Assembly (NCBI GenBank): GCA_022706685.1
Contig: JAKJCA010000001.1
Coordinates: forward strand, 1 to 64,000
DNA length: 64,000 bases
Source of the DNA: Bacillota bacterium
GTDB taxonomy: Bacteria > Bacillota > Clostridia > Oscillospirales > Acutalibacteraceae
Direction of reading: 5' to 3'
The notes under the pieces are model-generated. The model made no database searches. It was not told where the DNA came from and saw nothing but the letters and a program-made list of their open reading frames with translations. Below are positions 16,490-51,829 of the stretch, in pieces; position 1 is the first letter of the stretch, and each line of letters begins with the position of its first letter. The position numbers were made by a program, and so were the translations under genes.

Positions 16490-16765
16490 CAAAAAATAAT
16501 AGTCCTCCATCCTTTCTAGGGACGAAGGAATACTCCGCGTTACCACCCTGCGTTTTTGCTTTCAGCATTGCGCGTAAGAGCAAACACTCTATGTTCCGTC
16601 AACGGTGAACAGCCGTCGTTTCATAATCAAGCCGATCGAGCTTTTTCCGAAACGCCGCTCGGGAGTGAATTTCACCGCCTATCCCGCAAGCCCGTTTCAG
16701 CTATGGAGGGCTCTCTCTGGGCGGGTATCCGCGGATACTTGTCTCCGTCATCGCGTTTGTTTGCA
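16490..16765 (-). promoter_or_regulatory. T-box riboswitch (tRNA-Phe) of pheST
   Basis: On the minus strand the leader has the T-box core AGGGTGGTAACGCGG (16535-16549). It is followed by a 9-base-pair terminator stem (16504-16528, CCTTCGTCC with GGATGGAGG) and a T-rich run just before the pheS ribosome binding site. The stem I region upstream contains AGAGAG and the AGTA-like purine motif, and the specifier position reads UUC (16667-16669), followed by A as in other T-boxes. UUC is a Phe codon, matching the downstream genes. Uncharged tRNA-Phe would favour the antiterminator and allow transcription. Confidence 0.93.
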
Positions 16766-40965: not shown

Positions 40966-41409
40966 CTACTCCCCTGCTACGGGACGGCTTTCCGCCCTGT
41001 TCTTACGGTACCGGATATAATCGTCAAGCAGCATCGCCGCAGCGACAGCGTCAATTTTTTCTTTTCTTTTTTCTCCTCTGATACCCGCCGCGCTTAGTTG
41101 AGCATTTGCGCTTACGGAGGTGAGCCGCTCATCCCAAAGCTGCGTTTGAATGCCGCTGTGCTGTTCTAAAAGCTGCGCGAACTGTCTGCTTTTTTCGGCT
41201 CTGCTTCCATGTGAAGCGTCCATGTTGAGCGGCAGGCCGACGAGAATCAGGCCCGCCTTCCTGGCTTTAGCCAGATCGGAAATCGCGGCAATCAGTTTCG
41301 TCCTCGATTTTTCATTGATTACACAAACCGGAGATGCCAGCATTTCAGTAGCGTCGCAGACAGCGATGCCGGTTCTGGATTCACCGTAATCAACCGATAA
41401 AATAACCAT
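40966..41409 (-). CDS. ruvX: Holliday junction resolvase-like RuvX/YqgF
   Basis: The RNase H-like fold starts ILSVDYGESRTGIAVCD with the first catalytic Asp; the second acidic site is WDERLTSVSA and the third IDAVAAAMLLDDYI. The family processes 16S rRNA precursor or Holliday junctions. The 147-residue length is usual. Its ATG directly abuts the pyrD stop. ruvX usually neighbours ireB; here it is 28 kb away. Confidence 0.92.
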   Translation of the reverse strand: MVILSVDYGESRTGIAVCDATEMLASPVCVINEKSRTKLIAAISDLAKARKAGLILVGLPLNMDASHGSRAEKSRQFAQLLEQHSGIQTQLWDERLTSVSANAQLSAAGIRGEKRKEKIDAVAAAMLLDDYIRYRKNRAESRPVAGE

Positions 41410-42321
41410 CTACCATGCCCTAACTCCGCCGACAATTTCATTGACCGATTTCAAGCGGTTGGCTTCGAGATACTCGTCCAGCCCTTTCAATACTTCCCTG
41501 GGTGTGTAAATATCCGTAAAGTTTGCAGTGCCGATTTGAAAAGCGGCTGCGCCCGCAAGCATGATCTCCACGGCGTCCTGCCAGGAAGAAATGCCGCCGG
41601 CTCCGATAACAGGAATCTTCACTTTTGCCGCTGTCTGCCAAACCATTCTTACGGCAATGGGAAATATCGCGGGGCCAGAAAGTCCGCCGATGTTATTCCT
41701 TAATATCGGCCTTCTTGTTTGGATATCGATTTTCATCGCGGTGATGGTATTGATGAGGGTTAATGCGTCCGCTCCTTCCGATTCCGCAGCGATGGCAATC
41801 TCGGCAATATCTGCCACATTCGGCGATAATTTGACAATCAGCGGTTTTGAACAATGGCTTCGAACCGTCCTGGTAATCTGCGCAACACTTTGACAGGATG
41901 TTCCGAATGCGAGACCGCCGGATTTCACATTCGGGCAGGAGATATTCATTTCCACCATATCGACAGCCGTGTCATTGAACTTTTCCGCCAGAGCGCAGTA
42001 GTCCTCTTGCGTGGAACCGGCAATATTGGCAATAACCACGGCCTTCTGCATGTTAAGCCACGGCAGGTAATCGTTGATAAACCGGTCGGCTCCCGGATTT
42101 TCCAAGCCGACGCTGTTGATGATGCCGCTTGGCGTCTCCGCTATCCGCGGCGGCGGATTTCCGTCCCGTGGTTCCAGCGTTGTTCCTTTACATGCGATGG
42201 CTCCGACGTTCTCGAGCGGATAGAAACGGCTGATTTCCTCGCCGAAACCCGCTGTTCCTGAAGCAAGTATCAAGGGATTGTTGAGTTTAACCCCCGCGAT
42301 GTTCACCTGAAGGCTGCTCAC
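41410..42321 (-). CDS. pyrD: Dihydroorotate dehydrogenase B (NAD+), catalytic subunit PyrD
   Basis: The class 1B enzyme oxidises dihydroorotate with FMN and passes electrons to PyrK. The catalytic Cys lies in NISCPNVKSGGLAFG, and GAGGISSWQDAVEIMLAGA is the phosphate-binding end of the barrel. The length is 303 residues. GTG 42321 overlaps the pyrK stop (GTGA) and is well spaced from GGAGAGGTGG; TTG 42327 is an alternative. Confidence 0.95.
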   Translation of the reverse strand: MSSLQVNIAGVKLNNPLILASGTAGFGEEISRFYPLENVGAIACKGTTLEPRDGNPPPRIAETPSGIINSVGLENPGADRFINDYLPWLNMQKAVVIANIAGSTQEDYCALAEKFNDTAVDMVEMNISCPNVKSGGLAFGTSCQSVAQITRTVRSHCSKPLIVKLSPNVADIAEIAIAAESEGADALTLINTITAMKIDIQTRRPILRNNIGGLSGPAIFPIAVRMVWQTAAKVKIPVIGAGGISSWQDAVEIMLAGAAAFQIGTANFTDIYTPREVLKGLDEYLEANRLKSVNEIVGGVRAW

Positions 42322-43097
42322 GGCCAAACCACCTCTCCGGAACGGAAAACGGGACCGTCTTTACACACGTGACGGTATGACGGCTGTCCATCCTCACTGT
42401 TCACTGTCATGCAAGCGCAAACAAGGCAGGCGCCGATTCCGCAGCCCATGCGCTCTTCCAGCGAGACAAAACAATCGATTTGAAATTCCCGCGCTAGGGC
42501 CGCAACCGCTTTCAACATAGGTACCGGACCGCACGCATATATCGCGTCGCAGGCGCGTGATTGAACCGCCGAGCGTGCGCAGTCAGTGACGTAACCGCAC
42601 TCGCCAAGGCTGCCGTCTTCTGTGGCGATGTGCACTTTGCCGCAGTACTTTGAAAAATCCTGCGTCAGCATGGTGCAGCAGGCATTTTTAAAACCCAGCG
42701 CCGCATCCGCTTTCCCGCCGAAACGTTTTGCTGTTTCAAGCAGAGGAGGCGCCCCCATGCCGCCGCCGATCAGCAGCGGACGGCTGTATTGTTCAAAAGA
42801 GTCAAAGCCGTGGCCGAGAGGCCCGAGAACATCAAGGTATTCCCCCTGTGTTCTGCCGGCAAGCCAAGCCGTCCCCTCTCCCCTGACGTCAAAAACAATT
42901 CGCACGGCCTTGGCAGAGTCAATGATTTCACATACGGATATCGGCCTGCGCAGCACCTTTTCCCCGCAGCGGATATTGAGGAATTGCCCGGGAGAAGCGC
43001 TGTCGGCTATCTTTCCGCCGGCAAGCAGAAAATCGTAACACTGCCCGTATAGGTTTCGCTTGGATAAGATCTCGCATTTTTCCTGATAAGCAGGCAT
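42318..43097 (-). CDS. pyrK: Dihydroorotate dehydrogenase B electron transfer subunit PyrK
   Basis: PyrK carries FAD and a [2Fe-2S] cluster and links PyrD to NAD+. FAD binding is shown by LRRPISVCE and GPLGHGFD; the iron-sulfur ligands are in CGIGACLVCAC and the later HVCKDGPVF. Length 259 residues. The start ATG 43097 follows AAGGAG, 10 bases after carB. Confidence 0.95.
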   Translation of the reverse strand: MPAYQEKCEILSKRNLYGQCYDFLLAGGKIADSASPGQFLNIRCGEKVLRRPISVCEIIDSAKAVRIVFDVRGEGTAWLAGRTQGEYLDVLGPLGHGFDSFEQYSRPLLIGGGMGAPPLLETAKRFGGKADAALGFKNACCTMLTQDFSKYCGKVHIATEDGSLGECGYVTDCARSAVQSRACDAIYACGPVPMLKAVAALAREFQIDCFVSLEERMGCGIGACLVCACMTVNSEDGQPSYRHVCKDGPVFRSGEVVWP

Positions 43098-43107
43098 CTT
43101 CGGCTCC

Positions 43108-46104
43108 TTACGCTTGATTGATATCGATCATGGCGATGTCTTCGACCGAGCGTTTCATGGAAAGGCACAGGGTCAGCGCCAAAGCGGAATCCATTGTCGT
43201 GAAGACCGGGATTTGTTTTTCCAGCGCTCGGCGTCGTATGGCTTTGTCTTCCGAAATAGAATCGCGGTCTTTTTCTGACGAGCAAATTAAATAAACGATT
43301 TTGTTGCTGTTGATGAGATCGATAATATTCGGCGATCCCTCGTGGAGTTTTCTGACAGCGTTTGAAGCAATGTAATTGTGGTTGAGATGATTAGCGGTAC
43401 CCGCAGTGGCATAAATGGTAAAATCAAGTTGAGAAAAACGTTCGGCAACCGGTACTGCCGCCTGCTTGTCTGAGTTGCATACGGTAAACAGCACTCCGCC
43501 GGACCTTTTGATTCTCATGCCCGAAGCAGTCAGGCCTTTCAGCAGCGCGTCTTCGAAACAACCGGCAATACCCATCACTTCACCGGTGGATTTCATTTTT
43601 TTGTCGAGAACGGTGTCGGCGGATTCCAGTTTATCAAAACTGAAAACAGGCACGCGCACCGCATAATTACCCTTTGAAGGCAGCAGCCCCGTACCGTAGC
43701 CGAAATCCGCTGTTTTTTCCCCAAGCATGCAAGCGGCAGCAAAATCAATCAGCGGTATTCCCGTTGCTTTTGAAATATAGGGCACCGTATAAAACGAATC
43801 GGCTGATATACCGGCGACGAAGACGGAATTATCATAGAGTTTCATTTCGACGCGGAACATTCCGGCGGGTAAAACATCGGCCGCCAGTTTAAGGCAGTAT
43901 GTTTCCGCGGCGCGAATTACGCTGTCTTCCAATGAAACGGCCGGCGTTACCGAAATAGAATCGCCGGGATGGATATCGGCTTTTTCAATCAGCTGCGTGA
44001 ATCCGGGAATCAAGCATTCGGAGCCGTCGCAAAGAAGTATCGCTTCAAAACAGGTGGCATTAAAATACTTTTCCTTAATAAAAGGAATATTCGCTTCGAT
44101 GAGCGCGCGTTCCAGGTGTTTTTCGGCAAGCAGACGTGCCGTTTTGCCGCCGCCTCCCAAAACAGGCACGCCGGCGGATTCGGCGGCAGAATCGATTTGA
44201 TTCCGATTCTCGCCGCAATAAGCCGTCACAACAGCGCAAGGCCTTTCGACCGTTATGACATTGACAATATCCTCGGGGCAGATGGGTTCGATATAAAGCC
44301 GGTCAGAAACGGATATGTCTGTTGAAACGGCATTGGGATTGTTATTGACAAGAACCGTATAAAAGCCGCGTTTTTTCAGGGCTTTGATACAGTTTACAAC
44401 ACAGTAATCCAATTCCGCGCCGTAACCGACGCTGAAAGGACCGCTGCCGATGACCAGCACTTTCTTTTTACCCTTTGCCGCAGGATCGGAAAATATTCGC
44501 GCTTCGTTATCCTCATCCCAGGCAGAATAGAAACACGGCTTAACAGCGTCAAACTCGGCCGCGCACGTATCGACCATTTTAAAGCTCGGAGACCAGGCGG
44601 GCAAATGATCGGTGCCGGATAACCGCTTTATAGCGGTATCCGTAAATCCAAGTTCCTTCGCGTGTTTCATGTCGTCTTCCTGCGGAGAGTTTGCAAGAAG
44701 CAGCTCTGTTTCGGCGATATTTTTCATCTTCGTAAGGAACCAGGGGTCAATGCGGGTTATATCGGCAATCTCGGCAACGGGCACTTGTTTTTTTAAAGCC
44801 TGATAAACCGCAAATATCCTTTCGTTATCCGTACTTGCGATGATTTGTATCAGTTCGTCTGCCGTTTTATTTGCGAATTTAGGCAGTGTCGGCGTATCGA
44901 TTCCGATATTCAGAGCGCGTACCGCTTTCATAAACGCCATCTCGAAAGATGTGCCTATCGAAAGCGTTTCACCTGTCGCCTGCATTGCCAACCCGAGCGT
45001 TCTTGAAACGCCCGTGAAATGCTCGAAAGACCATTTCGGGAACTTAACGGCGCAATAGTCGAGAGCCGGTTCATTGCATGCTGTCGTGCAGCCGGTTATT
45101 TCGTTTTTGATTTCATACAGGCGGTAGCCGAGAGCCGCTTTTGTGGCAACTCTCGCAATTTGATATCCCGTCGCTTTCGATACCAGTGCCGATGACCGGC
45201 AAAAGCCCGGTTCGATATTGACAACCGAATATTCGCTTCCGTCGGGTTTTAAGACGAAATGGATATGACAGCCGCCGATTATCTGCAGGCAGGAGATGAT
45301 TTTAAGAGAAGCGGAACGAAGCAGCAAATGCTCGTATTCCGTCAGCGTTTGCGCAGGAATCATAGAAATGCTGTCGCCGGAATGGATACCCGCGGCGTCT
45401 ATATTCTCGATACTGGAGATGCAAATGCAATTACCGGCTGCATCCCTGATCACCTCGAACTCCAATTCCTTCCATCCCGAAACGCTTTTCTCAACCAGAA
45501 CCTGGCCTAAAACGGAAGCGGTTGCATATTTTTCAACTGCCTTGAATAATTCTTCGTCGTTGCGGCAATATGCCAAAGCTGCGCTTTCCGGTGAATACGC
45601 CGGTCTGATAACAATGGGATAACCCGTGTTTTGCGCAAACTCGAGCGCTTGTTCTGCGCCCGATACAATACTGTTTGCCAGGAGCGGAATTCCGATGCCG
45701 CCGAGCATCTCGGCCAATTCCTGCCTGTCCCGCACACAACGGATGAGGTCCGGCGTAACGCTGAGTATTTTCGTTTCAGTACCGTCGAGAAAGCCGTTTT
45801 GGTAGAGCTCCAGCGCCGCTTCCATCCCCTTTTTTCCTCCGAATACCGGAAGAATCGCGTCGGGTTTCTCCTTTTCGACGATACGCCTTAGTGTATCCAC
45901 ATTCAACGGTTCAATATAAACCCTGTCAGCCGCCCCTCGTTCGTTGGTCAGGGAGGTTGGATTTGAATTGACCAGGATTGTTTCGACGCCTTCTTCGCGA
46001 AGCGCTCTGAGCGATTCATAGCAGGCGCAGTCGAACTCCGCCGACGCCCCGATAACCACCGGACCGGATCCGATGACCATTACTTTACGTACGGTTTCTT
46101 TCAA
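43108..46104 (-). CDS. carB: Carbamoyl-phosphate synthase large chain-like protein, catalytically degenerate
   Basis: The fold is CarB: two homologous halves and a C-terminal MGS-like allosteric domain, 998 residues against the usual 1065 or so. The glycine-rich ATP loop of the first half (normally GGSGGG) is SPESAALAY near 170-179. The ligand motif EMNPR is NIEPG near 296-300. In the second half, IGSGPFSVG to IHPGDS spans about 160 residues where the first half spans 229: the piece with RPSYVLGG is missing. EVNPRAARTVP is replaced by GISADSFYTVP. Several structural residues remain (WKELEFEV, IENIDAAGIHSGDS). TTG 46104 follows GGGGAGGGG, directly after carA. Confidence 0.85.
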   Translation of the reverse strand: MKETVRKVMVIGSGPVVIGASAEFDCACYESLRALREEGVETILVNSNPTSLTNERGAADRVYIEPLNVDTLRRIVEKEKPDAILPVFGGKKGMEAALELYQNGFLDGTETKILSVTPDLIRCVRDRQELAEMLGGIGIPLLANSIVSGAEQALEFAQNTGYPIVIRPAYSPESAALAYCRNDEELFKAVEKYATASVLGQVLVEKSVSGWKELEFEVIRDAAGNCICISSIENIDAAGIHSGDSISMIPAQTLTEYEHLLLRSASLKIISCLQIIGGCHIHFVLKPDGSEYSVVNIEPGFCRSSALVSKATGYQIARVATKAALGYRLYEIKNEITGCTTACNEPALDYCAVKFPKWSFEHFTGVSRTLGLAMQATGETLSIGTSFEMAFMKAVRALNIGIDTPTLPKFANKTADELIQIIASTDNERIFAVYQALKKQVPVAEIADITRIDPWFLTKMKNIAETELLLANSPQEDDMKHAKELGFTDTAIKRLSGTDHLPAWSPSFKMVDTCAAEFDAVKPCFYSAWDEDNEARIFSDPAAKGKKKVLVIGSGPFSVGYGAELDYCVVNCIKALKKRGFYTVLVNNNPNAVSTDISVSDRLYIEPICPEDIVNVITVERPCAVVTAYCGENRNQIDSAAESAGVPVLGGGGKTARLLAEKHLERALIEANIPFIKEKYFNATCFEAILLCDGSECLIPGFTQLIEKADIHPGDSISVTPAVSLEDSVIRAAETYCLKLAADVLPAGMFRVEMKLYDNSVFVAGISADSFYTVPYISKATGIPLIDFAAACMLGEKTADFGYGTGLLPSKGNYAVRVPVFSFDKLESADTVLDKKMKSTGEVMGIAGCFEDALLKGLTASGMRIKRSGGVLFTVCNSDKQAAVPVAERFSQLDFTIYATAGTANHLNHNYIASNAVRKLHEGSPNIIDLINSNKIVYLICSSEKDRDSISEDKAIRRRALEKQIPVFTTMDSALALTLCLSMKRSVEDIAMIDINQA

Positions 46105-46105
46105 T

Positions 46106-47194
46106 TCATTCCCCTCCCCTGACCATCGCGGCAAAATCGTCGTAAATCCATGATGTATCGGAGTAAACAGGATTATCGAGGGGCGTGAACTGTATGGAAA
46201 ATGCCGGAATCCCTTTGTATTGTATTGCCTCGACGGATTGATCGTTGATATTGATCATGGTAATTTCGGCCACGCTGTCATCGAGGCTTTCGGCGACGAC
46301 GTCATAGGCGTGATTTTGCAGCGTGCTCATGGTTTGCCCGGCGACGCGCCTTAAGACAGGCTGATTTGAACCCCTGTGCCCTTTGGGCATTTTTGCGATT
46401 TTTCCGCCCATCGCAAGAGCCATCATTTGATGGCCGACGCCTATCCCGAAACTGGGAAGGCCCGATTGAAGCAAAGTGCAGATTTGTTTGATTAGGTCTA
46501 TATCCTCCTCCGGATCTCCCGGGCCGTTGGAGAAAACAATACCGGCAGGTTGCTCGGAGAGTATCTCTTCCGCCGAAGTGCGCGCGGGGTAGACTTTCAA
46601 CTCCAAACCTCTTTGTGAGAGCGCCGCGGCCATCTTTTCAGAATAACCGTAATCTATAACCGCGACGCGGGGGTTGCCTTTTATCGTGTTGATAAGCAGC
46701 GGTTTCGGCACAGTCACAGCATCGACTGCGCCACGGATGGAATATGATTGAATCCTGTCCATCAAAGAATCGAATCCGTCGAGTTTGTCAGTAATGGCTC
46801 CGTTGAAATAACCCTTGTCACGCAGTGCGCGCGTCAAACGGCGTGTATCGATGCCGTAAATACCGACTGTACCGTTTTGCCTGAGGTATTCGTCAATGGA
46901 CAGGACGCTTGAATCGCCCTGCGGTACTTCGCTCCATTCGCGTGCGATATACCCTTTCGCATAGATGCGGCGAGGCAAACGGCCGTCTACGCCGCGCATA
47001 CCGACCAGCGGATAAGTTTGTGCTACCAACTGGCCGTAATAGGATGGATCGCACAAAATATCCTGGAACGACGTGGTACAGGTATTAAACACGACTTCCC
47101 CGACCGCTTCGCCTTTGGCGCCCATGGAATATCCTTTAAAAACCGTACCGTCGGCTAAAACAAGATATGCTCTGGCGCGTTCATCATAATCCAA
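46106..47194 (-). CDS. carA: Carbamoyl-phosphate synthase small chain-like protein lacking the glutaminase triad
   Basis: The 362-residue chain aligns with CarA throughout: VGEVVFNTCTTSFQDIL, GIYGIDTRRLTRALRDKG, FSNGPGDP and QNHAYDV. Yet the glutaminase triad is gone. GICLGHQ is GIGVGHQ, so the nucleophile Cys is Gly252 (codon 46439-46441). QGHPE is QFTPL, so the catalytic His and Glu are Thr337 and Leu339. It therefore should not hydrolyse glutamine. The frame is intact and starts at TTG 47194 after GGAGGT. It sits between pyrF and carB, a normal pyr operon position. Confidence 0.87.
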   Translation of the reverse strand: MDYDERARAYLVLADGTVFKGYSMGAKGEAVGEVVFNTCTTSFQDILCDPSYYGQLVAQTYPLVGMRGVDGRLPRRIYAKGYIAREWSEVPQGDSSVLSIDEYLRQNGTVGIYGIDTRRLTRALRDKGYFNGAITDKLDGFDSLMDRIQSYSIRGAVDAVTVPKPLLINTIKGNPRVAVIDYGYSEKMAAALSQRGLELKVYPARTSAEEILSEQPAGIVFSNGPGDPEEDIDLIKQICTLLQSGLPSFGIGVGHQMMALAMGGKIAKMPKGHRGSNQPVLRRVAGQTMSTLQNHAYDVVAESLDDSVAEITMININDQSVEAIQYKGIPAFSIQFTPLDNPVYSDTSWIYDDFAAMVRGGE

Positions 47195-47212: not shown

Positions 47213-48133
47213 TTATTGTTTTGCCGCATTTCTTAATGCATCTCTCATCGCGATGGCTTCTGTTCTGGCCGCTTGTGTAAAACCTGTTTCCGGAACGCCA
47301 TGCTTTTGATACGCGCACATAATTGCCCTGGAAGAGTTGACGATCACACCCGTCATTTCCCTGCCGAAGGCGCAGGCGATATCTTGCGCCTGACCGCCCT
47401 GCGCTCCATAGCCGGGAATCAGGAACATGGTGTTCGGCAACCTTTCGCGCAGGCGGGCCAGCTGTTCGGGATAAGTGGCGCCGGCAACAATTCCCACGCC
47501 GTTATATCCGTACTTGCCGGGTAATTGCTCGCCCCATTTTTCTGCCAGTTCAGCCACGAGCATATAAAGCGGCAACTCCCCGCAAACGATATCCTGCAGT
47601 TCGCCTGAGGACGGGTTGGACGTTTTGCATAAGACAAATATTCCTTTATCGAATTTCGCGCAAATTTCCGTTAATGGAATAATGCCGTCGCTTCCCAAAT
47701 AAGGGTTGACCGTCAGTGCGTCCGCATTAAAAGCCTCGTTGCTGGACGTTTCGACTTCCGTCTGGCCCAAATAAGCTTGCGCGTAGGCTTCCATTGTGGG
47801 CCCGATGTCGTTCCTTTTTGCGTCAGCGATAACAAACATATTGTTATAACGGGCATATTCTATGGTTTCGGCAAGCGCTTTCATGCCATGCCAGCCAAAC
47901 ATCTCGTAATAGGCGCATTGCGGTTTGACTGCAGGAACAGTATCGCACAACGCGTCAATCAGAGACTTATTGAAACGAAGCACTGCATCGGCCGCCGCCT
48001 CAAGTGTTTTCCCGAACCGTTGATAGGATTGTTCTTTTATAAAGCCGGGAATATATTCGAGCCGCGGATCCAAGCCGACAACAGTCGGGTTGGACATTGC
48101 GGCGACTTTTTCAATCAGCAGATCAAGGGACAT
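47213..48133 (-). CDS. pyrF: Orotidine 5'-phosphate decarboxylase PyrF, type 2
   Basis: PyrF makes UMP from OMP. The catalytic DxKxxD motif is VIADAKRNDIG, and the long form with TVVGLDPRLEYIP marks the type 2 subfamily of about 300 residues. ATG 48133 overlaps the pyrC stop by 11 bases; longer readings start inside pyrC. Confidence 0.93.
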   Translation of the reverse strand: MSLDLLIEKVAAMSNPTVVGLDPRLEYIPGFIKEQSYQRFGKTLEAAADAVLRFNKSLIDALCDTVPAVKPQCAYYEMFGWHGMKALAETIEYARYNNMFVIADAKRNDIGPTMEAYAQAYLGQTEVETSSNEAFNADALTVNPYLGSDGIIPLTEICAKFDKGIFVLCKTSNPSSGELQDIVCGELPLYMLVAELAEKWGEQLPGKYGYNGVGIVAGATYPEQLARLRERLPNTMFLIPGYGAQGGQAQDIACAFGREMTGVIVNSSRAIMCAYQKHGVPETGFTQAARTEAIAMRDALRNAAKQ

Positions 48134-49424
48134 CGGCAGCCATCCTTTCTGATAAAGGGAATACAATTTCGCCATTGCAAACGGTATATTTTACGCGGCC
48201 CGATAACTCGAGGTGTTTAAAGGGCGTATTTGAGCATCTGCCATGCAGTTTTTCGGGTTCGACTCGCCACTTTTCCGAAGGGTCGAACAAAACGATGTCC
48301 GCCGGTTGGCCTTTCGCCAACGTGCCGCCTTGAATGCCCAATATCCGCGCGGGGGCCGTGCTCATAAGAAATATCAGTTTTTCCAGCGTGACATACCTTT
48401 TTTCGACAAGATAAGTGATTCCTGCGCCGAGGGACGTTTCCAGCCCGACGACACCGTTGGGCGCTGTCAAAAAATTCTTCTTTTCCTCGGCGGTATGAGG
48501 AGCATGGTCTGTCGCGATACAATCGATGGTGCCGTCGGTCAGCGCCTCGATAATGGCCATTCTGTCTTCCGGCGTACGCAGAGGCGGGTTCATGCGGTAA
48601 TCGGCGTCTCTGCGAAGCAGCAGTTCTTCGTCAAGCGCAAAATACTGCGGGCAGGTCTCCGCCGTTACCTTGACGCCGCGCTTTTTCGCTTCTTTAATCG
48701 CTTGAACCGCTCCGGCGGTACTGACATGGCAGATATGCAGTCTCGCTTTTATTACCGCCGCGAGTTGAATATCTCTGACAGTGGCTTCGTTCTCCGCCGC
48801 GGCCGGGATGCCGCGAACAGCCAGTTTCTCGGATATCTTTCCTTCGTTTATGAGGCCGCCTGCGGATAACTTCCGTTCCTCGCAGTGCGCAAGAATCAGT
48901 GAACTACTTTCTATTGACTGTTTCAGCGCGGCCGAGAGAACGGCGGAGTCGCTGACCGGATTGCCGTCATCGGAAAACGCGACGGCTCCGGCTCGGCGCA
49001 GCGTTTGCATATCTGTCAATTCTTTGCCTGTCAATCCTTTTGTAACAGCGGCAACCGGATAAACCCTGACGGCCGCCCTGCGGGCTTTTTCAATGATGTG
49101 CTGAAGTACGTCCACACAATCTGCCGGCGGCAGTGTGTTGGGCATGCAAACGAAAGACGTAATACCTCCGGCCGCGGCGCATGCGGCAACCGAAAGAATA
49201 TCGTCCTTATAAGTCTGGCCCGGGTCCCTCGTATGGACATGCATGTCTACGAGTCCGGGTGCCGCAAAGAGGCCTGTTGCGTCAATAGACACATCGGCAG
49301 GTAAAGCAATACCGGGATGAACGGTATCGATCCTGCCGTCGCGTATGAAAATATCGCCATTAACCTTAGCAGAGGAAGCGGGATCGATAATCCATGCATT
49401 TTTAATTATGATGGTCTTTCCCAT
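48123..49424 (-). CDS. pyrC: Dihydroorotase PyrC
   Basis: A class I dihydroorotase that cyclises carbamoyl aspartate. Metal ligands are in VDMHVHTRDPGQTYKDD; further ligands lie in LAHCEE and LHICHVSTA; the catalytic Asp is in ATDHAPHTAEEK. The 433-residue length fits. ATG 49424 is preferred over GTG 49430 for spacing from GAGAGG. PyrB, which would make its substrate from carbamoyl phosphate, is not in the window. It begins 42 bases after the penicillin-binding protein gene. Confidence 0.95.
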   Translation of the reverse strand: MGKTIIIKNAWIIDPASSAKVNGDIFIRDGRIDTVHPGIALPADVSIDATGLFAAPGLVDMHVHTRDPGQTYKDDILSVAACAAAGGITSFVCMPNTLPPADCVDVLQHIIEKARRAAVRVYPVAAVTKGLTGKELTDMQTLRRAGAVAFSDDGNPVSDSAVLSAALKQSIESSSLILAHCEERKLSAGGLINEGKISEKLAVRGIPAAAENEATVRDIQLAAVIKARLHICHVSTAGAVQAIKEAKKRGVKVTAETCPQYFALDEELLLRRDADYRMNPPLRTPEDRMAIIEALTDGTIDCIATDHAPHTAEEKKNFLTAPNGVVGLETSLGAGITYLVEKRYVTLEKLIFLMSTAPARILGIQGGTLAKGQPADIVLFDPSEKWRVEPEKLHGRCSNTPFKHLELSGRVKYTVCNGEIVFPLSERMAADVP

Positions 49425-49466
49425 GCCCACCTCTCTTGACGGCAGTATTCAGGAATATGGTAACGG

Positions 49467-51800
49467 TTAAGGCGGTTGCGTGTTGGGTTTGGTTGTGCCT
49501 GTCGCAGGCGGTTGGGTCGTAACCGGCGCAGTCGTATCCGGCTGAGTCGTGGTGACGGGCGGGAGAGTTGTTTCCGGTTCCGTCGGCACAGTGGTAGGTG
49601 GTTTTGTTGTCGTAACGGCCGGTTTTGTAGTGGTTACCGGCAATGTGGTCGTTGTCGCGCCCTGCTCGTTGCTGTCGTACGATCTGCCGGGGTATTTGCC
49701 ATTGATATACCATCCGAGTTTTGTCGAAGAGCAGCCCGTCAGGTTCAGCAAACCTGTATCCGTGCAGTATCTCCTTAAGACAGTGTCGCCGCTCTTGGGG
49801 AATGTTTTCACTTTCAAGCCCTTATGGATCCTGTTGAATACTTCGTAAAACATTTTACCCGCAGGGTTGGGTCCGACGCGCGGTATCGGTTTCGGTTTGT
49901 CATATCCGTACCAGGTCGCGCTGATATAATAAGGCGTCCCCGCTATTGTCCATCTGTCCTTGTACTCGTCCGTCGAACCGGTTTTTGCCATCACCTGGAA
50001 TTTTCTCAACGTGCTGCCGGAGCCGAAGGAATCGGTATCAACCGTCTGCAAAAGTTCGCACATAACATCCGAAGTGGCGGGAGATATAATCTGTTCGCCT
50101 TTGGGATTGGTTTCCAGCAGTACTTGGCTGCCGGTGCTGTCTGTCACTTTATAATAGCAGTAGGGCGCGTAATACTTGCCGCCATTGCCGAAAGCCGCAT
50201 AAGCCGCCGCCATTTCCAATGTTGTAACGCCGTTCGTCAGAGCGCCGACAGCCAGCGGCGGGGCGGCGATATCCCTATCCGGATCAAGGGTGGTGATGTG
50301 ATATTTATCCCTTAAGTATTCATAACCTGTTTTCGGGGTTACAACGTTAATCAATATTCTGGCCGCGACCGTGTTGACGGATTCCTGGATCGCATATTGG
50401 ACGGTAATTCTGCCGCCGGAACCGAGGGTGCCCGAATAGTTCTGCGGCCATGGCCTGCCGTTGATAAACGAACAGGATTTATCCAGGAATTTGGTTGACC
50501 AGGTGATTTTTCCGCTTTCGATACCCGGCGAATAAACCGACAGAGGCTTAATGGAAGAACCCGGCTGCCTGGGTGAATCCGCGGCGCGGTTCAGGCAGCG
50601 GTTGCTCGGTTTTGGCCCCGCGCCGCCGATGATCCCGACCACGCGGCCCTGGTAGTCCATAATGGTCATTGCAGACTGCGCGGCCGGATTTGCAGCGGTA
50701 CCCTTTTTTTCGGCCATGGTGATGCGGTTATAGTAGACTTCCTCCATTTGTTTTTGGATGTCGAGGTCGACCGCGCAATAAATCTTGAGTCCGCCGTAAT
50801 AAATTTTGTTGGTCGCCTGGTACAGTGAATATCCGTATTTTTCGCGAAGGTCGTCAATGACATTATCAATGACAAAGTCAACGTAGTAGCTCTGGTACTC
50901 CTTTTTCTCCTGTTTCTGTTCCTTATTATCCGAACCCGAAGGGACATAATCAGGGCTGTTGGTGAAAATAACCTTATAGGCGAGCGCCTTTTGATATTCC
51001 TGCTGCGTGATGGCGCCCTGCGCATACATCTCGCGCAGGCAGTATTCCCGCCGCTCTTTGTTATTTTCCGGGTTGGTCAACGGGTCAAAACGCGACGGCG
51101 CCTGGGTGATGGAAGCCAAACAGGCGCTTTCCGTTAAATTGAGTTGCGAAACGGTTTTACCAAAGTATTTTTCGGCTGCGGTTTCAACACCGTAACAGCC
51201 ATTGCCGAGCGGGATTGTATTCAAATACGTTTCCAGAATCACTGTCTTGGAGTAGTTTTTTTCCAGGTTCAGCGCGCTCATGATTTCATTGAATTTACGG
51301 ACAACCGTGACATCTTTTTCGTTGGTAAGATTTTTAATCAGTTGTTGCGTGATGGTGGAGCCGCCCTGGTCGAAGTTGTATTTTGTGATAACTCCGGCAA
51401 AACGGACCCAGTCTACCCCTTTATGCTCGTAAAACCGTTTGTCTTCAAGGCTGATAAATGCCTTCTGAAGGTGCTCGGGCATTTTCTCGATGTCTACCCA
51501 AACCCTGTTCTCTCCGCCGTGCAATCGGGCATACTCTACCGGTTTGCCGTCTTTCCCGTAAGCGAAAATAAAGGATGTCTGGCTTTGTCCGGATTTATAC
51601 TCATCCAGGTTCAGCGCAGGATCGCCGTTGGTATAGGATACGGCATAAGCGAACACATATCCAACGACAACACTCGATACGATCAATACAATCAGCAGCA
51701 CCGAAAGCAGGAAAAAGATGAACTTAACCAGGCCGGTCTTGCACGGACTGGCCTTTTTCTCCTTGCGGTTTGACTTGCGCTGCGTTGTTTTGCCTGCCAT
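49467..51800 (-). CDS. Class A penicillin-binding protein (PBP1A-type)
   Basis: A bifunctional peptidoglycan synthase. A basic N-terminus and one membrane helix (about 25-50) precede the glycosyltransferase domain (SLEDKRFYEHKGVD, GGSTITQQLIKNL, RKFNEIMSALNLE). The transpeptidase domain has the nucleophile in PGSSIKPL (SxxK), SVN and KTGSTDE. The C-terminal 65 residues are a Thr/Pro-rich tail (TTTLPVTTTKP and similar). ATG 51800 is chosen over GTG 51806. It heads the long run through pyrC to radA. Confidence 0.93.
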   Translation of the reverse strand: MAGKTTQRKSNRKEKKASPCKTGLVKFIFFLLSVLLIVLIVSSVVVGYVFAYAVSYTNGDPALNLDEYKSGQSQTSFIFAYGKDGKPVEYARLHGGENRVWVDIEKMPEHLQKAFISLEDKRFYEHKGVDWVRFAGVITKYNFDQGGSTITQQLIKNLTNEKDVTVVRKFNEIMSALNLEKNYSKTVILETYLNTIPLGNGCYGVETAAEKYFGKTVSQLNLTESACLASITQAPSRFDPLTNPENNKERREYCLREMYAQGAITQQEYQKALAYKVIFTNSPDYVPSGSDNKEQKQEKKEYQSYYVDFVIDNVIDDLREKYGYSLYQATNKIYYGGLKIYCAVDLDIQKQMEEVYYNRITMAEKKGTAANPAAQSAMTIMDYQGRVVGIIGGAGPKPSNRCLNRAADSPRQPGSSIKPLSVYSPGIESGKITWSTKFLDKSCSFINGRPWPQNYSGTLGSGGRITVQYAIQESVNTVAARILINVVTPKTGYEYLRDKYHITTLDPDRDIAAPPLAVGALTNGVTTLEMAAAYAAFGNGGKYYAPYCYYKVTDSTGSQVLLETNPKGEQIISPATSDVMCELLQTVDTDSFGSGSTLRKFQVMAKTGSTDEYKDRWTIAGTPYYISATWYGYDKPKPIPRVGPNPAGKMFYEVFNRIHKGLKVKTFPKSGDTVLRRYCTDTGLLNLTGCSSTKLGWYINGKYPGRSYDSNEQGATTTTLPVTTTKPAVTTTKPPTTVPTEPETTLPPVTTTQPDTTAPVTTQPPATGTTKPNTQPP
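49470..49665 (-). repeat. Thr/Pro-rich low-complexity repeat encoding the PBP tail
   Basis: Imperfect tandem units of the form TTTxP/TTKP are encoded here, built from ACN and CCN codons. Such tails in Gram-positive PBPs are flexible, wall-spanning linkers; copy number may vary between strains. Confidence 0.7.
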
Positions 51801-51829
51801 AAGCACCCCCGGACCTTTACTAAAATAAG

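Follow-up and report, generated by a model that had tools for sequence, protein, structure and literature searches.

What becomes of a carbamoyl phosphate synthetase (CPSase) whose catalytic residues are gone and whose genes stay in the pyrimidine operon? The question is raised by a locus in positions 1 to 64,000 (forward strand) of contig JAKJCA010000001.1 from the Bacillota bacterium assembly GCA_022706685.1 (Acutalibacteraceae), the stretch of DNA that we call the window. It carries genes for a large and a small CPSase subunit, here named carB* and carA*. The first-pass annotation, made from the sequence alone, had likened the large subunit to a CPSase pseudoenzyme whose regulatory domain is intact. 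This is also our best reading, now strengthened by a glutaminase-dead CarA*, an intact-looking CarAB elsewhere in the genome, a single clade of relatives, purifying selection and the residues of the nucleotide site. The coordinates, strand and motifs given for carB held when the sequence was re-checked:

43108..46104, minus strand: carB*, CPSase large-subunit pseudoenzyme (open reading frame, Pfam, NCBIfam, alignment, motifs)
45568..45594, minus strand: ATP-grasp 1 without its glycine loop, SPESAALAY where intact CarB has LGGTGGGIA (alignment, motifs)
45205..45219, minus strand: half-1 metal motif, NIEPG where intact CarB has ExNPR (alignment, motifs)
43798..43812, minus strand: half-2 metal motif, GISAD where intact CarB has ExNPR (alignment, motifs)
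44080..44148, minus strand: site of 62 absent ATP-grasp 2 residues, with a short GKTARLLAEKHLERALIEANIPF left between the gap blocks (alignment)

The probable start of carB* is the TTG at 46104, which gives a protein of 998 amino acids (P0001); the reading frame is open from the TTG at 46134. The replacement of GGSGGG by SPESAALAY and the altered metal ligands in both halves had been reported before and were seen again, and in the alignment the second glycine loop is deleted. From IGSGP to IHxGDS, half 1 spans 229 residues (21 to 250) and half 2 spans 159 (562 to 721), compared with 229 and 221 in the intact CarB of the same genome. Thus the earlier estimates of about 229 and about 160 stand, but the deficit is 62 residues and not about 70; it falls into gap blocks of 28, 20 and 14 in comparison with that CarB. 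The counter-case named beforehand, an ATP subdomain that survives in rearranged form, was not seen in the CarB* alignment and was rejected.

CarB* keeps the order preATP-grasp, ATP-grasp, oligomerisation, preATP-grasp, ATP-grasp and MGS, with the second ATP-grasp shortened. Its Pfam content is D1 (two stretches), D2 (one stretch, in half 1 only), D3 and MGS, and the ATP-grasp match is confined to half 1. The C-terminal MGS-like domain, said to be kept, is present (PF02142, 60.9 bits). Structure prediction had been proposed as a check; the predicted AlphaFold2 (AF2) model, built on 24 sequences, matches the fold of E. coli CarB over the whole length.

The small subunit is damaged as well:

46106..47194, minus strand: carA*, CPSase small subunit of 362 amino acids with catalytic Cys and His replaced (open reading frame, NCBIfam, alignment)
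46439..46441, minus strand: carA* Gly codon where the nucleophile Cys stood (E. coli Cys269; alignment)
46184..46186, minus strand: carA* Thr codon where the catalytic His stood (E. coli His353; alignment)

Both Cys269 and His353 of E. coli CarA are needed for glutamine hydrolysis, according to the accessible part of PMC6245113. Judged by its residues, CarA* is glutaminase-dead. Among its best 120 homologs, the window's own included, the nucleophile position holds Gly in 119 and Cys in one. At the His site Thr is the commonest residue (81/120), and His falls outside the six commonest, which cover 111/120. The motifs GHRGSNQPV and QNHGY are mostly retained in this set.

Since residues needed by both ATP sites and by the glutaminase site are lost, we predict with near certainty that CarA*-CarB* makes no carbamoyl phosphate. 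The pair could be imagined as a CPSase that still works through an unusual active site, as CarB* exceeds the NCBIfam NF003671 cut-off (915 vs 599 bits) and CarA* that of TIGR01368 (314.4 vs 307.35). However, CarB* lies under the TIGR01369 cut-off (898.9 vs 1027 bits), and the loop, the metal ligands and most of the half-2 ATP-binding part are gone, with no rearranged copy of the missing part in the alignment, making such activity extremely improbable. We classed the pair as a CPSase-derived pseudoenzyme because the ATP-site and glutaminase features of an active CPSase were looked for and found absent; CarB* combines lost motifs with a kept fold and purifying selection.

The losses were then counted by position over 28 pseudo rows, some of them closely similar to each other. 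These are the 33 flagged rows without L026 and L019, without G022, which has diverged too far, and without the near-copies L010 and L012; L026 and L019 are outgroup rows flagged by the motif rule, yet intact (GGEGGG and GGAGGG, two ExNPR each). The glycine loop, Glu761, Asn843 and Arg845 are present in 0/28, Asn301 in 1/28 and Glu841 in 4/28. Retention is higher for Gln285 (9/28), Glu299 (10/28), Arg129 (16/28), Arg169 (17/28), Gln829 (18/28), His243 (25/28) and Glu215 (27/28). Half 1 has thus decayed unevenly among the members, and half 2 uniformly at the metal site. We take Arg129, Arg169, Glu215, His243, Gln285, Glu299, Asn301 and Arg303 to have catalytic roles in the E. coli CarB ATP site. 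The window protein retains the counterparts of the first four and has lost those of the last four, so its first ATP site is damaged and not erased.

These residues bear on the idea that CarB* has a chemistry of its own, either half-1 ATP binding (for example as a bicarbonate-dependent ATPase, or to form carboxyphosphate) or a new reaction of a fixed cysteine:

45565..45567, minus strand: codon of CarB* Cys190, present in 28/28 pseudo rows

Cys190, Ser369 and Arg827 are each newly fixed in the pseudo clade (28/28), Cys190 being found in 1/19 intact CarBs from pyr loci or related to them and in 0/17 of the arg type. Together with the four half-1 residues kept in the window and in many other members, and with Glu299 in ten rows, this speaks for such chemistry. 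The phosphate-binding glycine loop is nevertheless missing from every row, Gln285 and Asn301 are rare, and the window protein has none of Gln285, Glu299, Asn301 and Arg303. We regard a separate chemistry as quite unlikely.

A comparison with relatives, also suggested in the first-pass annotation, placed the losses in one clade. The protein homolog searches scored the candidates with the most words in common. In 113 of the 120 best CarB* relatives, the window's own included, there is neither GG(S/T)GGG nor ExNPR; 102 of these are shorter than 1010 amino acids and 11 have 1050-1059. The other seven have the loop and two ExNPR motifs. Because the relatives carry the same losses, we rejected an assembly, frameshift or chance artefact. 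Of the 398 genomes in the window's family, at least 10 carry the pseudo form (G000, G102, G419, G417, G009, G006, G359, G341, G002, G412), and in an order-wide sample it occurs in at least 4 of 297, all four from that family. The ten genomes and G022 represent seven genera, six of which also have carA*. The CarB* of G022 (L108:7803-10511) is extreme, a 917-amino-acid frame with 22-28% identity to CarB; its gene, with no carA adjoining, is still placed between pyrF and pyrK.

Next to these losses, carB* is under purifying selection. Ratios of nonsynonymous to synonymous divergence (dN/dS) were obtained for pairs over 55% identity. The two best-measured carB* pairs give 0.032 (L013/L014, dS 1.14) and 0.064 (L015/L016, dS 0.45); the intact paralog, compared between G341 and G385, gives 0.059. 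The remaining carB* pairs have dS of 1.7 or more, or infinite; those with finite dS gave 0.05-0.11, near saturation. These values, the frames open throughout the fetched pseudo members, the three newly fixed residues and the retention of the pair in a genome that lost the neighbouring pyr genes (G359, below) all speak against the view that carA*-carB* are functionless, decaying relics carried in the operon. That view can draw on the faster divergence of CarB* than of its intact paralog, on the absence of carA* in G102 and G022 and on the short, divergent G022 frame, and we consider it very improbable.

The divergence of CarB* was compared by domain with that of intact CarB from the same eight genomes (28 pairs), with domain borders set by motif, as in the residue and co-adaptation comparisons, and the deleted ATP-grasp 2 stretch omitted. 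CarB* diverged 5.0-8.6 times as much in the four catalytic segments, 2.3 times in the oligomerisation domain and 2.1 times in MGS. Leaving out one genome at a time gave 4.8-8.8, 2.1-2.4 and 1.9-2.2, respectively. This pattern indicates that the catalytic constraint was removed and the fold kept. The allosteric domain lies at the end of the protein:

43198..43458, minus strand: MGS-like allosteric domain (best PF02142 stretch), containing Thr910, Thr913 and Lys929, with Lys890 just ahead of the domain

Counterparts of E. coli Lys954 and Thr974, which we presume to act in the nucleotide site, and of Thr977 are present in 28/28 pseudo rows, and that of Lys993 in 26/28, the other two rows having gaps there. 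In the E. coli enzyme, inhibition by uridine monophosphate (UMP) and its binding depend crucially on Thr977 and Lys993 (PMC6245113, accessible part).

A working CPSase appears to be encoded elsewhere in these genomes. Contig C68 of the window genome has a CarA with AICLGHQ and HPEAS and a CarB in which the two loops and the two ExNPR motifs are present. An intact CarB, at 1468 bits or more, is present in 9/9 pseudo-bearing genomes tested, so the active paralog expected beside a prozyme-type regulator is predicted in each of them. The adjoining CarA retains Cys in G000, G341, G385, G359, G009 and G002, and has lost it elsewhere, with Gly instead in G006 and G102 and Ser in G022. Loss of the catalytic Cys from the CarA of otherwise intact CPSases was met repeatedly (L067 in G006, L072 in G102, L121 in G022, L023 and L017), which suggests that glutamine use was lost recurrently among CPSases. 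As a separate observation, the PyrB of the window genome (L116:7656-8723, G000:C24) carries at its C-terminal end a zinc domain of the PyrI_C type (24.8 vs a cut-off of 23.4 bits). The PyrI nucleotide-binding domain was not found in the window genome, and among the nine pseudo genomes this nucleotide-sensing domain was found only in G359.

What, then, could the pair do? CarB* retains oligomerisation and effector domains without working catalytic sites, and an intact CarB is found in all nine genomes tested. For these reasons we favour, at somewhat less than even confidence, a role as a nucleotide-sensing regulatory partner of the genome's separate intact CPSase. CarB* is predicted to fold like CarB and to bind ligand, and it keeps the oligomerisation domain and the MGS domain with its nucleotide-site residues. 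Through these two domains it could join the working CarB in a mixed oligomer. It may then relay the pyrimidine state, as UMP or phosphoribosyl pyrophosphate (PRPP), to the working CPSase, the direction of control being our proposal, and that single enzyme would now have to supply arginine as well as pyrimidine synthesis. How mixed assemblies could come about is suggested by E. coli CPSase, which forms dimers via its regulatory domains and tetramers via its oligomerisation domains, with UMP favouring the heterodimer (PMC6245113, accessible part).

Several observations weigh against a regulatory partner. In the same part of that source, oligomerisation itself had no effect on the regulation of E. 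coli CPSase. Absolute divergence is about equal over the parts of CarB* (0.49-0.60; MGS 0.49, elsewhere 0.50-0.60), so MGS is not specially conserved. At the positions of Asn1015, Thr1016 and Thr1017 the window CarB* has Cys, Ser and Ser, respectively. Half 1 keeps the four ATP-site residues described above, and carA* is absent beside carB* in G102 and G022. A search for co-adaptation in the intact CarB also found no sign of it: compared with a sister clade, whose genomes were not separately checked for a pseudo pair, 0/142 oligomerisation positions and only 2/123 MGS positions are fixed differently, with 5/402 and 4/385 fixed changes in the catalytic halves.

The operon could suggest a different partner. 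Around carA*-carB* the window has the following genes:

48123..49430, minus strand: pyrC, dihydroorotase, same operon (Pfam, NCBIfam)
47213..48175, minus strand: pyrF, orotidine monophosphate (OMP) decarboxylase, same operon (Pfam, NCBIfam)
42318..43097, minus strand: pyrK, electron transfer subunit of dihydroorotate dehydrogenase, same operon (Pfam, NCBIfam)
41410..42327, minus strand: pyrD, dihydroorotate dehydrogenase, same operon (Pfam, NCBIfam)
49467-51806: penicillin-binding-protein-like gene flanking the operon (named from reading of the sequence)
40966-41409: ruvX-like gene flanking the operon on the other side (named from reading of the sequence)

The order pyrC-pyrF-carA*-carB*-pyrK-pyrD-ruvX is common to L010, L011, L013-L016 and L028, and L012 and L029 share it as far as their contigs extend; L010, L011 and L015 are apparently identical to the contigs of G419, G006 and G385, which makes the two locus sets overlap. 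No PyrR-type or other RNA control of the operon was found in the window with Rfam at gathering thresholds. The sole above-threshold Rfam match there is a T-box leader at 16515-16760 on the minus strand (RF00230, 109.2 bits).

CarB*, with CarA*, might be a scaffold that holds PyrC, PyrK-PyrD or PyrB and channels intermediates, given the operon shared with pyrC, pyrF, pyrK and pyrD at these nine loci (two cut by contig ends). The fungal URA2 protein offers a parallel in its inactive dihydroorotase (DHO)-like domain (PMC6245113, accessible part). Genome G359 argues otherwise. Identity between G359 and its genus-mate G341 is only 44% for PyrC, 37% for PyrK and 51% for PyrD, no match to the native PyrF was found in G359, and carA*-carB* remain between their usual flanking genes with the native pyr neighbours gone. 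For intact CarB the two genomes share 86% identity. With the native pyr genes replaced and carA*-carB* and intact CarB kept, G359 helps to choose between the partners: the pair persists though pyrC, pyrK and pyrD sit in a dissimilar cluster elsewhere. A scaffold would also not need to conserve UMP-site residues, and we judge it unlikely. The compact G359 cluster (L169, G359:C2:147536-152965), unlike the native operon, holds pyrC, pyrK and pyrD by BLAST, PyrI by Pfam, and pyrF-, pyrE- and pyrB-like genes named from reading of the sequence. It was possibly acquired from elsewhere.

The pseudo form probably has a single origin. In a mixture-model tree with 39 rows, all 23 pseudo rows make up one clade (100/100; 200/200 bootstrap trees), which is nested within the intact CarBs of pyr loci. 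In a wider set of 96 rows, with 20 near-duplicate loci omitted, the pseudo clade comprises 31 rows. Several origins are not favoured, as the mixture-model tree needs one change; the partial deletion of ATP-grasp 2, as in the window, is likewise one change on that tree. The nearest intact CarB relatives have a CarA without Cys in G035, G430, G053, G514, G444 and G111, and in G114 carA is missing from its place between pyrF and carB. G126 (pyrC-pyrF-carA-carB-pyrK-pyrD) and G292 (pyrC-pyrF-carA-carB) have an intact CarAB with Cys at the corresponding position of the operon; pyrK and pyrD were not found in the G292 stretch. In G009, G006 and G002 the CarB sites are lost at nearly full length.

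The nesting of the dead clade among pyr-operon CPSases with Cys-less CarA and intact CarB indicates stepwise decay. As a series, the sequences read as a glutamine-dependent pyr CPSase that would first have lost the CarA Cys with CarB intact, then the CarB sites at about full length, and then part of ATP-grasp 2. G102 and G022, with carA* gone and carB* more diverged, would stand furthest along. We more tentatively propose, as a possibility short of our preferred one, that in this clostridial family the CPSase of the pyr operon lost first its glutaminase, next the two ATP sites and finally part of a domain, and became a dead 'pro-CPSase' of two subunits, sensing UMP or PRPP and controlling the arginine-type CPSase through mixed assembly.

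Another fate of CarB was seen beside these: a C-terminal diaminopimelate epimerase (DapF) fusion in 18 genomes by motif, including G173, where Pfam confirmed it (L099:1492-5526, G173:C44). CarA lacks the catalytic Cys in 7 of the 18.

Among known systems, we take PyrAA-PyrAB to be the pyrimidine-specific CPSase genes of B. subtilis. CarA*-CarB* resembles that enzyme in its pyr operon place, two subunits and domains, but differs in the lost catalytic residues of the ATP-grasp and glutaminase sites and in the partly deleted ATP-grasp 2. In Gram-positives, B. subtilis among them, each of the two pathways has a CPSase of its own (PMC6245113, accessible part). The nearest concept is the prozyme, a dead paralog that has lost active-site elements and activates trypanosome S-adenosylmethionine decarboxylase (AdoMetDC) (PMC5201418, accessible part). 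As there, a dead paralog is kept beside an active one, with fold and ligand site kept and active-site elements deleted. Unlike the prozyme, the pair belongs to another enzyme and another domain of life, has two subunits, and is known here from sequence, the complex being only proposed. The fungal CPSase-aspartate transcarbamoylase (ATCase) protein URA2 likewise retains a pyrimidine unit without catalysis (PMC6245113, accessible part), but fused within an active protein, whereas CarA*-CarB* is a separate CPSase pair. Absence of the catalytic Cys from CarA is shared with the six sister genomes named above, whose pattern (Cys lost, both CarB loops and both ExNPR intact) is that expected of an ammonia-dependent, CPS1-like CPSase. 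The window differs, as its CarB* sites are lost too. In the literature searched (titles and the starts of abstracts, with few subscription papers), we found no description of a CPSase pseudoenzyme, and nothing on a pseudo-dihydroorotase or relevant to an ammonia-dependent CPSase with CarA.

CPSase is the textbook allosteric enzyme supplying arginine and pyrimidines. A conserved dead pair with living decay intermediates and a nucleotide-site signature would show the passage of an enzyme into a dedicated regulator. If this is true, the gene names CarA and CarB in these bacteria wrongly imply activity, and if the pro-CPSase proposal holds, one working enzyme would feel both pathways.

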